DNA of 64,000 nt. It comes from an uncultured Coriobacteriaceae bacterium. GTDB lineage: Bacteria > Actinomycetota > Coriobacteriia > Coriobacteriales > Atopobiaceae. The stretch is taken from NCBI GenBank assembly GCA_902791035.1, contig CADAUA010000015.1, positions 1-64,000 of the forward strand. Direction: 5' to 3'. The notes below the pieces were generated by a model that did no database searches, had not been told where the DNA came from, and saw nothing but the letters and a program-made list of their open reading frames with translations. The first letter of the stretch is position 1. Each line of letters begins with the position of its first letter. Positions 37,784-57,712 of this stretch are shown here, in pieces. Made by a program: the position numbers and the translations under genes.

Positions 37784-38089
37784 TATAATTCCTACCCGTC
37801 TCATCCCAGGTCTGTGGTTGCGGGCGGGTGCCGCGGCGCGCGTCCTAGTCCATGGCAGACGAGGCCGAAGGGATCCACGTAAGCCGGGGCGTGAGCGCGC
37901 CGGCGATCATGGTTCGTCCTAGAAGTAAGTCGCACCGCCCGTCATACCAAACCAGAGGCATCCGGCCTCGCGGGCGAGAGGGCCAACGTGGGGGGCCGTA
38001 GCCCCGAAGCGACAGCCCCAGTGCGCGAGTGTGGGGGCAAAGACCAGGTCAGCTGGGTGAGACGCCTGCGTCTCGGGAGGGAGCCAGGG
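37784..38089 (+). promoter_or_regulatory. promoter (TATAAT) and long leader with no gene
   Basis: A consensus TATAAT lies at 37784-37789 in GGTTATAATT, followed by about 290 bases to the lipoprotein start. The leader is rich in self-complementary GC blocks and holds the direct repeat CGTCCTAG (about 37841 and 37916). No open frame with a start site was found, and no riboswitch consensus was recognised. Confidence 0.45.
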
Positions 38090-53213: not shown

Positions 53214-53340
53214 GGGTCTCCTTGGGGCGAGGGCGGGGCGGTCGGCGTGGCAGAGGGCCGACCGTCTGCCGGCTGGCCTGCCAGTTCCGACGCCATTAGG
53301 CTAGAGTGTAGCTACAGGTGCGCCGGGAATCGAGGTGGAC

Positions 53341-55098
53341 ATGGCTGACGAGACCGACGAGCGCGAGACGTGGGAGCCGCACTGGCCTACCGATGATGGG
53401 GTTGACGTGCCGGCGGCGGGGTTCGCCGAGTGCGAGGACTGGGCCTTGGACGCTGCCGAGCCGGATTGGGCGGCGGCTGACCGTGTGCTGGGCAACAAGC
53501 CCGCAGAGCCCGAGGCACCAGAGGCAGATGATGCGCTAGCAGAGCCTGGCGAGCCCGATGTGCCCGAGGCGGACGACGCGCTAGCAGAGCCTGGCGAGCC
53601 CGATGCGCCCGAGGCGGACGACGCGCTAGCAGAGCCTGGCGAGCCCGATGTGCCCGACGAGCCCGATGCACCCATAGGGCCCGACGAGCCCGATGCACCC
53701 GACGAGCCCGATGCACCCATAGGGCCCGACGAGCCCACCATGGCCGTTCCCTACTCCCCGGCGGAGGAGCCGGCGGAGCCCAGGCTTGGGTCGGAAGCGG
53801 CGACTGCGTTCGACCCGGTGGCGGAACCCGGCCCAGAGGCGGAACCCAAGCCTGACGCCGAGCCCGAGCCCGGCATCGAGCAAGAGCCGAACGAAGGGGA
53901 CGAGAGCGGTATCGAGCCCGAAGTCGATGCCGAGCCAGAGCCCGACGGCATGCCCGAGCCCGGATCCGAAGACGAGTTCGAGCTCGCGTCGGAGCCCTGG
54001 GCCGAGGGTCTCTCGCAGCTGGACACCCCCATAGCACCCCTGCCCGTAGCCCACACGCATGCCACCCAGAACGACCAACGGGAGCGCCGGATGTCGCGCG
54101 TCCTTGTTGTCGTGTTGGCCTGCGCGCTGGGCGTGGCCGTGGTGGGGGCCGGACTTTGGTACGCGGGAACCATCCGGGCCCAGGCGGAGCGCGAGGCATA
54201 CGAGCAGGCGCACCGTGTCTACGACGTCACCGTGCCCCTGGATGCGCCGGGCTACACCGAGAGGGCCACGCGCATCCCGCTGCACGTGACGGGTACCGAC
54301 CTGGACGGCAACGCCGTGGACCACACGGCCTACGTCAGCGGGTCGGGCGCGGGGCTGAGTCTCGTGCAGGGCGACTACACGGTGCGGGCGGACGTGTCGC
54401 CGATCCTGGCCGACGGGTCGCTCTATGCGCTGCCGAGCACCGAGGTCACCATCTCCATCTGGGCCGACGACTCCGGCAACGCGAGTCCCAAGGTCACGGG
54501 CTCGCTCGCGTACGCGGTGGCGGACATGTCCACCGTCACGGACGAGCAGATAGAGGCCGCACGCGATGCCGCGGCGGCCGACGACGAGAGCGCTGGTTCG
54601 GCGACGGCCCTGGCCCAGGAGGCGACGGACCTGCGCGACGCCGCAGTGGCAGACGCCAAGCGTGCCGAGGTCGCCAGGCAGTTCGCGACGGCACTCTTCA
54701 CCAACGCCAAGGACACCGGCGAGACCACGAGCACCTGGTGGGGCAAGCGGGCCAAGCTCGCGGAGGTCTCGGGCTATCCCAAGGCCTGCCTGGAGTATGT
54801 GGACAAGGACGCCGAGGTGTACGGGCTCCTCAGGCGCAGCTACGCCTACGCGGCCCGGACCGACAAGCGCGGCATCCGCGACGTCACGGTGTGGGATCCC
54901 GAGGTCGAGGTGACCAAGGTCGCCGGCCAAAGCGTGTATCTGCAGGTCAAGTGCTACAGCACGAGCGGTCTCACGGCCGCCGTGGACTACAAGACCAAGT
55001 GGGACAAGGACGTGGTGGACGTCCTTGTCTCGATGGGCGAGGGGAATCTCGTGGAGGACTACGAGCTCGTCAACTGGGACGAGGCGGACAACTCCTAG
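53341..55098 (+). CDS. single-pass membrane protein with acidic Glu-Pro-Asp repeats
   Basis: About 585 residues. The N-terminal 255 are cytoplasmic and highly acidic, with tandem repeats of EADDALAEPGEPDVP and then of DEPDAPIGP. One helix (RVLVVVLACALGVAVVGAGL) at about residues 260-280 leads to an extracytoplasmic region containing a lone Ig-like part (VYDVTVPLDAPGYTERATRI, VTISIWADDSGNASPKV) and a helical segment. No catalytic motif. ATG 53341 is six bases from GAGG; GTG 53335 is possible. Repeat-driven length variation is likely. Confidence 0.75.
   Translation: MADETDERETWEPHWPTDDGVDVPAAGFAECEDWALDAAEPDWAAADRVLGNKPAEPEAPEADDALAEPGEPDVPEADDALAEPGEPDAPEADDALAEPGEPDVPDEPDAPIGPDEPDAPDEPDAPIGPDEPTMAVPYSPAEEPAEPRLGSEAATAFDPVAEPGPEAEPKPDAEPEPGIEQEPNEGDESGIEPEVDAEPEPDGMPEPGSEDEFELASEPWAEGLSQLDTPIAPLPVAHTHATQNDQRERRMSRVLVVVLACALGVAVVGAGLWYAGTIRAQAEREAYEQAHRVYDVTVPLDAPGYTERATRIPLHVTGTDLDGNAVDHTAYVSGSGAGLSLVQGDYTVRADVSPILADGSLYALPSTEVTISIWADDSGNASPKVTGSLAYAVADMSTVTDEQIEAARDAAAADDESAGSATALAQEATDLRDAAVADAKRAEVARQFATALFTNAKDTGETTSTWWGKRAKLAEVSGYPKACLEYVDKDAEVYGLLRRSYAYAARTDKRGIRDVTVWDPEVEVTKVAGQSVYLQVKCYSTSGLTAAVDYKTKWDKDVVDVLVSMGEGNLVEDYELVNWDEADNS
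53521..53739 (+). repeat. in-gene tandem repeats, 45-bp and 54/27-bp
   Basis: Three 45-bp units at 53521, 53566 and 53611 with a few substitutions, followed by GAGCCCGATGCACCC-based units. All keep the reading frame of the membrane protein. Confidence 0.9.
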
Positions 55099-55689: not shown

Positions 55690-56862
55690 TCAGGGGAAAT
55701 AGGGGCTGCCGAGCAGGTCATCGATGGGCGATGGGGGAAGGTCGTAGGGGACGTCGGGATCCACGAGGAGGGCGTCGACATCCGGCGCAGGGATGTCGGC
55801 GTAGCCGGTACCTTCCGACGGGGAAGCCCCAACTCCCGTGGCCAGCCACTCGAGCGGGGGCAGGAGCTCGCGACGCAGGGAGTCGATCGCATCGAGGGCA
55901 TCCCGGCTGTGGAGGCGACGGAGCCGCCTGCGCGACTTGGCATCGCCGTGGTCTGCCATGTGCTGGACGATCTGGCCGAGCTTTCGCTCGAAGGCATCGC
56001 GGCTGGTAAGGTCCTCCGTGCGCATGGGGATTACCCGGATGCGCAAAGACTCGATGTCCGACTTGCGCTCATCGTCCATCACCCGCTCCTCGGGAGTGGA
56101 ATGGCGCTCGTTGCTGTCGTACTCCACGTCCAGCTTGTACTGGGGCCAGTAGAGGTCGGGCTTGAAGGTGTCCCTGCGGGTCAGGTGACGGAGCTCCGGC
56201 GGGACCGGCATCTCCGGGTTGAGCTGCGGAGGCTCGAGATTGGCCCCACGATGACGTGGCGGGAGGACGAGCAAAGTAGCCAGGAGGGTCTCCATCGGCG
56301 AGAAGGAGTTATCGAGCAACCAGGGGAGGGCTTGACGCGCGTATTGTGCGCCGCGCATCCCCTTGGCTCGTTCGACGTAGCCAGCAATCCTACGCGCGGT
56401 GGTGAGGGGCTGACAGAAGTAGGTGCAATGCTCGCCGTGCTCGCCGGGCGTCTCGCGCGAGTAGCGACCGGTGAGCTCCATGCCTAGGGCGAGGCACTCG
56501 GGAATGTCATGGATGTCCGCGCACCTTCGCACGAAGTAGGCCTCGGGTGACGGCATGAGTACGTGCCCGCCCGCGCGTACGAGTGCACCCTGCGGTAGTC
56601 GCTGCGGCATGAGGTGGTGCCCCAGACCTTCCGATTGGAACATCTCCGACTTTGAAGTCACGCTTATGTCAAGGGGTTCCTCGGACGGGAGATAGAAGCG
56701 GACCATCGACAGGCCGAGGTCGTCAATGTCCTGTTGCGTTGAAGCGCAGCTGCCAGGTGTGAAGTTGCGCCTCTGGCATCTCGCCAGACATAGCTCTCCC
56801 TCGTGGGCGGCGTGCATGGCGTGATCGAGCGACTTGCCTGCTAGGACGATCTCTTTGGGCAT
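55690..56862 (-). CDS. hypothetical protein with PD-(D/E)XK-like (DUF559-type) core
   Basis: A 390-residue protein. Residues about 220-290 read DTFKPDLYWPQYKLDVEYDS then RVMDDERKSDIESLRIRVIP, resembling the KxDfxw...vvEyDg...dD.rR layout of DUF559/Vsr-like nucleases, though the Lys of the motif is not seen. The N-terminal half includes ELCLARCQRRNF and YFVRRCADIHD segments of unknown role. Many Coriobacteriia carry proteins of this outline; I cannot name a function. AAAGGAGCAAG precedes the ATG. It sits next to the 145-bp inverted-end element. Confidence 0.65.
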   Translation of the reverse strand: MPKEIVLAGKSLDHAMHAAHEGELCLARCQRRNFTPGSCASTQQDIDDLGLSMVRFYLPSEEPLDISVTSKSEMFQSEGLGHHLMPQRLPQGALVRAGGHVLMPSPEAYFVRRCADIHDIPECLALGMELTGRYSRETPGEHGEHCTYFCQPLTTARRIAGYVERAKGMRGAQYARQALPWLLDNSFSPMETLLATLLVLPPRHRGANLEPPQLNPEMPVPPELRHLTRRDTFKPDLYWPQYKLDVEYDSNERHSTPEERVMDDERKSDIESLRIRVIPMRTEDLTSRDAFERKLGQIVQHMADHGDAKSRRRLRRLHSRDALDAIDSLRRELLPPLEWLATGVGASPSEGTGYADIPAPDVDALLVDPDVPYDLPPSPIDDLLGSPYFP

Positions 56863-56981
56863 TCTTGCTCCTTTACCGGGGTGGAGGAAGTATGCCCCGA
56901 TTGGCGGCGAACGACTTTGGGAAGTCGCAGAAATTCCCTTGGACCTATGAGGATGGCCGCGAAGTTCTGGATCGTCCAAGA

Positions 56982-57126
56982 ATGACGTCAAATCCGAGCT
57001 TTTCGGTGTCGGTTCTTTAAAAGAACAATGTTATGTACAAGTTTGGCCGACTTGTGGGGCGTCTCGGCGGCCGAGGACGATTCAGAGGGCCATGGGCGAC
57101 ACCGAAAAGCTCGGATTTGACGTCAT
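56982..57126. mobile_element. 145-bp MITE-like element with perfect 30-bp inverted ends
   Basis: The 30 bases 56982-57011 (beginning ATGACGTCAAATCCGAGC) are the exact reverse complement of 57097-57126. The 85-bp interior contains three smaller hairpins: GTTCTTTAAAAGAAC, ACAAGT...ACTTGT and CTCGGCGGCCGAG. The interior is more AT-rich than the surroundings. No target duplication or transposase is visible. Confidence 0.75.
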
Positions 57127-57154
57127 ATTGAGCGAAAGCTCTACTTCAAGGTTC

Positions 57155-57712
57155 CTAGAGGAGGGTTGTGGCGTGGGAGATCGTGGCAATGTAGTCGTCC
57201 AGAGAGGCAGCTCCGCCCTCCGTGCGGCGGTATTCGGGATATCCCAGCATGAGGAAGGTGATGACCCAGGCCACAGCCTCAGCGCTGTCGGCGCTGCGGG
57301 TCCATATGTCCTCGCGCAGGGCATTGGCCACGGTTGCGCGCATACCCTGTTCGACGTCCACGTCAGAAGGGACCTGTCGCAGGAGGGCCAGATCGTCAAG
57401 GACGCTCTCCGGAGTGTCCAACATGGGGCCCATGAGTCCCATCGTCGCACCGGAAAGGGGGCTGGCCGGCGTGTGCCTCGACACCACCTCCCCAAAGGCC
57501 CGGATCCGCTCGCGCTTGAGCTGGTCGGCGAGGTCATACTTGTCGTGGTAGTGCCGGTAGAAGGTCCCTTTGTTCACCAGAGCCTCGTCCACTACGTCCT
57601 GCACGGTAATCTGGTTGAACCGCCTGGCGCGGAGCAGCCGCAGGAACGCCTCCTCGATGCTGCGCCGAGTCTTCACAACTCTGAGGTCCTGGCCACCGGT
57701 TTTCTGCGACAT
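57155..57712 (-). CDS. TetR family transcriptional regulator
   Basis: A 185-residue protein. The N-terminal HTH reads SIEEAFLRLLRARRFNQITV then QDVVDEALVNKGTFYRHYHD, the standard TetR layout with recognition helix NKGTFYRHY. The C-terminal ligand domain resembles the AcrR/TetR_C_7-type of Gram-positive regulators. Divergent from the radical SAM gene with 186 bases between, so that gene is the likely target. A GATATC-centred AT-rich motif near 57752-57765 is a possible operator. Confidence 0.85.
   Translation of the reverse strand: MSQKTGGQDLRVVKTRRSIEEAFLRLLRARRFNQITVQDVVDEALVNKGTFYRHYHDKYDLADQLKRERIRAFGEVVSRHTPASPLSGATMGLMGPMLDTPESVLDDLALLRQVPSDVDVEQGMRATVANALREDIWTRSADSAEAVAWVITFLMLGYPEYRRTEGGAASLDDYIATISHATTLL

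Follow-up and report, generated by a model that had tools for sequence, protein, structure and literature searches.

A ten-copy family of helically phased inverted-pair repeats in an uncultured Coriobacteriaceae bacterium and the association of such pairs with putative VSR-like nuclease genes

An inverted-repeat element beside a VSR-like nuclease gene in the window (the whole 64,000-nucleotide stretch of DNA that was analysed) was one member of a ten-copy non-coding DNA family, and it is rather likely that the protein encoded by that gene recognises the arms of these elements. The copies of this family have two-part arms that occurred exclusively as inverted pairs, their lengths followed the turn of the DNA helix, and long-loop inverted pairs with other arm motifs were associated with related nuclease genes across many genomes. 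The first-pass annotation had correctly named the nuclease gene as a neighbour of the element while missing the significance of this link, which is the main result reported here.

Anatomy and copies of the element

The 30-bp perfect inverted ends described in the first-pass annotation (56982-57011 and 57097-57126) matched exactly and the whole 145 bp folded far beyond chance as claimed (z of about -10.6, with no shuffle equalling it). The three inner hairpins that had been attributed to the core were not upheld, as the core fold on the described strand was at the level of dinucleotide shuffles (z of -0.49, against -2.37 for the opposite strand). No common fold was shared by the cores of the nine other copies, whose values scattered about zero except for -3.3 on one strand of the copy on contig C2. 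The ends therefore carry the folding signal and the inner hairpins do not. The limits of 56982-57126 proved too narrow, with conserved GAAGTAG/CTACTTC outer boxes extending the element to 56961-57147. Matches to R1, the sequence model of the arm used for the arm search, covered 56961-57010 (+) and 57098-57147 (-) and the information profile was at background outside of these. The described placement between a nuclease-like gene and a TetR gene, both on the minus strand, was borne out, the former starting at 56862, 98 bp from the element, and the latter ending 7 bp beyond it. Features of the region were as follows.

55690-56862, minus strand: VSR-like / PD-(D/E)XK homing-endonuclease-like protein of 390 aa, the presumed partner
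56961-57147, no strand: whole element, two two-part inverted arms of about 50 bp and an 87-bp core
56961-56967, plus strand: left outer box A, GAAGTTC (consensus GAAGTAG)
56983-57010, plus strand: left box B, TGACGTCAAATCCGAGCTTTTCGGTGTC
57036-57061, plus strand: central motif, TACAAGTTTGGCCGACTTGTGGGGCG, separated from box B by 25 bp on the left and 36 bp on the right
57098-57125, minus strand: right box B, the perfect inverse of the left box B
57141-57147, minus strand: right outer box A, CTACTTC
57155-57712, minus strand: TetR-type regulator (PF00440), a bystander gene

The copy-number comparison proposed in the first-pass annotation gave a dispersed family, with ten copies in the source genome (2.69 Mb in 37 contigs) and none in the 139 other genomes of the bacterial family. 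Exactly 20 full-length arms were identified with R1 in the source genome, every one of them in an inverted pair of about 187 bp, and the same search of the 139 genomes returned no convincing arm. Degenerate arm patterns matched nothing in a collection of species-representative genomes, in viral contigs or in phage records, and their matches in plasmid records were at chance level. The tenth copy (contigs C24/C27) was interrupted by a multicopy insertion sequence, accompanied by the 8-bp duplication CAACCACA, and rejoining of the flanks restored exactly 143 bp, the modal pair length. This insertion sequence (L069 1663-1761 and L070 1-99) also broke the assembly at the point where it split the copy. 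Similarity between the C15 and C20 copies was essentially confined to the element. Nine of the ten copies were located in an intergenic region with at least one gene start, and no common theme was apparent among the adjoining genes.

All 20 arms aligned without gaps and consisted of box A (GAAGTAG), 15 variable bases and a 28-bp box B (TGACGTCAAATCCGAACTTTTCGGTGTC), with conservation stopping abruptly outward of box A and inward of box B. Box B arms were about 87% identical while the cores were near random and mostly unalignable apart from the central motif, a pattern that requires either selection in place or some process that homogenises the arms. Within box B the flanking parts were nearly invariant, and at the nine middle bases the two arms of a copy agreed more closely than arms from different copies (P=0.0009). 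The arms of one copy were not concordant in the spacer between boxes A and B.

Helical phasing and related repeat families

Pair lengths, measured from outer end to outer end of boxes B, were 143 bp in six copies, 144 in one, 154 in two and 165 in one, and therefore stepped by approximately one DNA helical turn. With the modal length fixed, a phase test on the other four lengths gave P of about 2.5e-4 when a 10.5-bp repeat was assumed and 5e-4 with a repeat of 11. The central motif, TGCAGNNNTACCCGASTTGTGGGGCG, was clear in eight copies, its distance to box B being 25, 26 or 36 bp on the left side and 25, 26, 36 or 46 bp on the right. These distances correspond to turns of the helix and keep the same phase. 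The length steps together with the in-phase central motif point to a structure of DNA and not of RNA. The central motif resembles a protein site, and we read the element as a candidate DNA-protein structure in which the two arms and the central site would lie on one face of a short loop.

Further inverted-pair families were found in a 0.4 Mb sample of the source genome, and the same cutoff gave two and none per 0.4 Mb in two relatives. Family 2 consists of a 30-bp palindrome, CACCTGCAAGTGACATGTCACTTGCAGGTG, whose repeats were spaced at 103, 103, 104 and 114 bp in the four pairs; one further spacing, of 181, was composite. In family 3, CGAACTTCAGGTTAGTAGAGT, all seven pairs had a spacing of exactly 80 bp between the inverted arms; dispersed copies of both families were counted in sampled stretches of the genome. 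A central module, GCAATTC.TCTACCTGC..TTATA, was common to families 2 and 3, and in one copy of the first family (family 1) this module replaced the usual motif, with a score of 20 where shuffles reached at most 12. Arms and centres therefore combine like modules, and the central motif that is shared between families hints at a second factor common to them.

The 15-16 bp unit of the window element's central motif also built rigid arrays of 31-bp period on four contigs (C1, C2, C5 and C6). These arrays of AACCCGACTTGTGCGG were mostly intergenic. Arrays of 51-bp and 22/23-bp period, equal to five and two helical turns, were observed as well, and the 22-bp unit also occurred as an inverted pair. 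Array positions are given below.

31-bp period: L207 5381-5739; L208 6030-7280; L206 1637-2197; L200 15354-15781 and 17016-17231
51-bp and 22/23-bp period: L188 9142-9498, L189 16379-16607; L198 19559-19647, L206 8379-8473, L204 approximately 395-490

Three inverted pairs on GGGGTACTCCCC were present in the window at 478, 35588 and 61261, apparently another dispersed pair family, which had a relative at C1:405 kb (L195) and for which no nuclease partner was identified.

Nuclease genes and their repeats

The 390-aa protein had no match of its own in Pfam. A profile of 27 relatives matched the homing endonuclease of PDB entry 3r3p (E=4e-4 over 52 residues), which we take to be I-Bth0305I of the VSR-like/EDxHD kind, and two relatives matched REase_MTES_1575 (MTES_1575/DUF559). 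Residues of catalytic type, D236, W239, E247 and H254 among others, were invariant in the 27 relatives, and on this sequence evidence the protein appears to contain a catalytic core homologous to the VSR-like/EDxHD homing endonuclease. A single-sequence structure prediction was uninformative (mean pLDDT 36). In addition to the related core indicated by the profile match, the two share a gene for a nuclease of selfish type; I-Bth0305I is annotated as a mobile intron protein whereas the gene described here is free-standing and flanked by dispersed inverted-pair repeats. Members of the nuclease family were present in 132 of 140 genomes of the bacterial family, often with at least ten per genome, and no relatives were found in viral contigs and phages.

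Four nuclease genes in the source genome adjoined four different repeat families. The link in the window was to a single adjacent copy of the ten-copy family, the second member (C2:206 kb) was flanked by two 31-bp arrays and the third (C1:79 kb) adjoined family 2. These three loci prompted the hypothesis of an association, and for the fourth strong nuclease match (C6:149 kb) either family 3 or 22-bp arrays were predicted beforehand. Family 3 was found on both sides of this gene, as predicted. The rough chance of links at four of four loci is 5e-6, a figure in which three of the four are not independent of the hypothesis.

In other genomes of the bacterial family a long-loop inverted pair was detected at 20 of 29 nuclease loci compared to 4 of the 44 control loci, which were likewise taken from this family (Fisher P=1.2e-7), with a cutoff of 18 out of 20 bases, under which nine of the 29 nuclease loci had no pair. 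A stricter cutoff of 19 out of 20 bases left 12 nuclease loci and 2 controls (P=1.4e-4), and locally shuffled sequence gave no such pairs. Pairs at nuclease loci were mostly located 35-420 bp from the gene and several loci (L231, L237, L238 and L240) had related pairs on both sides. Arm motifs usually differed from locus to locus, and R1 matched none of them. Arm similarity tracked nuclease similarity (Mantel P=0.004), to which shared ancestry may contribute as several of the close pairs came from one genus. The closest nuclease relatives, at 43% identity, had different flanking repeats and the specificity of the partners would therefore have to change fast.

Dispersed families were again found in 400 kb from a different genus (G103), where both nuclease genes detected had a family of their own. 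The first, GACCATACCCGAACG, comprised six pairs, all at a spacing of 48, with two beside the nuclease gene and four elsewhere, and the second, GACTTGTCAATAGATTT, was spaced at 108 in four pairs and 106 in one, with one pair beside the nuclease gene. A homologue in Collinsella aerofaciens (WP_320677929.1 in NZ_OY725717.1), annotated as a hypothetical protein, was followed immediately downstream by a perfect pair with a spacing of 169 bp, and this organism contained further pair families whose spacing was constant. In one stretch (L278, NZ_OY725717.1 400001-450000) several clusters contained arms of TCTCGATCTGTAACA whose orientation alternated at intervals of 40-41 or 80 bp, and GTTGCGGTGAAATAG formed pairs 49-50 apart.

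Proposed mechanism and alternative explanations

From the layout of the repeats and their association with the genes, we infer that the nuclease binds and cuts the arms and that the repeats spread in consequence. A dimer or tetramer of the nuclease would grip both arms in one complex with the intervening DNA looped, perhaps with a second factor bound at the central site. A looped two-arm complex would account for the length steps of about 11 bp and for the in-phase central site. Box B or its vicinity would then be nicked or cut, and with other copies as templates for repair the arms would spread and be kept alike while the cores drift. Such cutting and repair would explain the conserved arms and drifting cores, the match of the box B middle within an element and the lack of a target duplication. 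It is quite possible, and is proposed here tentatively, that VSR-like homing-endonuclease-type genes, multicopy within genomes of a Collinsella-related family of actinobacteria and each with its own set of helically phased inverted pairs that is bound as a looped complex and spread or homogenised by cutting and repair, constitute a new selfish or domesticated system. The nuclease genes might also simply tolerate or attract repeats.

The nearest parallel is the REPtron, in which the TnpA_REP gene sits among its own inverted-pair repeats (PMC8266576). Both systems have dispersed intergenic palindromic repeats that form inverted pairs with a linker and lie beside the gene of the presumed enzyme (PMC8266576). 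The enzyme described here is VSR/PD-(D/E)XK-like and not an HUH tyrosine transposase, and its repeats have two-part arms of about 50 bp in helical phase, number about ten copies and not hundreds, and lack a hairpin right after GTAG. With a different class of enzyme and without the GTAG-hairpin layout, the element is not classed as a REPtron, and the best reading is that the nuclease-repeat pairing would work like a REPtron with another class of enzyme. That the repeats form a REP/BIME system served by a classical HUH TnpA_REP (RAYT) transposase is very doubtful. In favour of such a system the REP tetranucleotide GTAG recurs in box A, in the arms of family 3 and in the central module that families 2 and 3 have in common, but it lies 22 bp outside box B with no adjoining hairpin, the local hairpin of box B is broken in some copies, and a weak tblastn search of 2.0 Mb of the genome with E. 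coli RayT identified no RAYT-like protein. An enzyme that makes or keeps the repeats is known for few small dispersed palindromic repeats, with TnpA_REP as the main case. If the reading preferred here is true, a second and unrelated enzyme class has entered the same partnership, which would indicate a general route by which DNA-cutting enzymes acquire a repeat family of their own. It would also provide a biochemical handle, as many natural enzyme-site pairs with differing motifs could be read from the genome, and would assign a testable role to a large group of genes, which includes at least one that carries a hypothetical-protein annotation in Collinsella aerofaciens, a common gut bacterium. 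No description of the nuclease-repeat pairing was found in the open-access literature, subscription journals being outside the search.

The likeness to a MITE noted in the first-pass annotation held in part. The element is short and non-coding, with terminal inverted repeats and several intergenic copies like the prokaryotic MITEs (reviewed in PMC10969869), and differs from them in having no target duplication, related transposase or shared core and in its fixed helical spacing. The missing target duplication and transposase, already remarked upon for the window copy, were confirmed across the family: no duplication of length 2-12 was present at any offset of 18-44, and the 37-contig assembly contained no longer element with these ends that could be an autonomous parent, all 20 arms being in short pairs. 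A plain MITE was rejected on these two grounds. An old non-autonomous MITE whose DDE transposase is now lost, with an incidental nuclease link, would fit the dispersed intergenic copies, their sharp ends and the confinement of the C15/C20 likeness to the element, yet it is unlikely given that neutral decay after insertion does not yield arms about 87% identical around near-random, unalignable cores and that the nuclease association recurs in other genomes. Tn3-type TIMEs and ERIC/Correia elements are likewise short, dispersed inverted-repeat elements, and to our knowledge neither helical spacing nor a nuclease partner has been described for them. Operators of a DNA-looping regulator or of a chromosome-structuring protein, with the nuclease-like protein acting only as a regulator or being unrelated, are about as improbable as the old MITE. 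The phased multi-site layout and the nine copies near a gene start agree with operators, but gene starts border most intergenic regions anyway, the neighbouring genes share no theme and the nuclease residues of catalytic type are invariant in the 27 relatives.

Two further explanations are highly improbable. A tyrosine recombinase (Xer or an integrase) that uses the arms as paired sites to invert or resolve the core would fit the 28-bp length of box B and the concordance of its variable middle between the arms of an element, but the recombinases identified were limited to XerC- and XerD-like proteins and a single phage-type integrase, the orientation of the core has no evident consequence and the nuclease link would go unexplained. 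Ten paired copies also argue against the single 28-bp XerCD site expected per replicon terminus, and dif was not clearly found. A structured RNA or an attenuator acting as a transcript, as raised in the first-pass annotation, could draw on the strong overall fold and on some paired changes in box B. Covariation was seen in box B only and is also explained by DNA symmetry, and set against an RNA are the chance-level folding of the cores, the unpaired spacer between boxes A and B, the lack of an Rfam match for the element and the steps in length by helical turns. Differences compatible with G-U pairing on one strand were considered as a hint of RNA and rejected, as two of the copies could not be oriented with certainty and there were transversion mismatches as well.

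Elsewhere in the window, the region 37800-38061 was identified as a raiA RNA (RF03072, 148.9 bits) and 53335-55098 encodes a protein with tandem PDAPEADDALAEPGE-type repeats in its N-terminal part.
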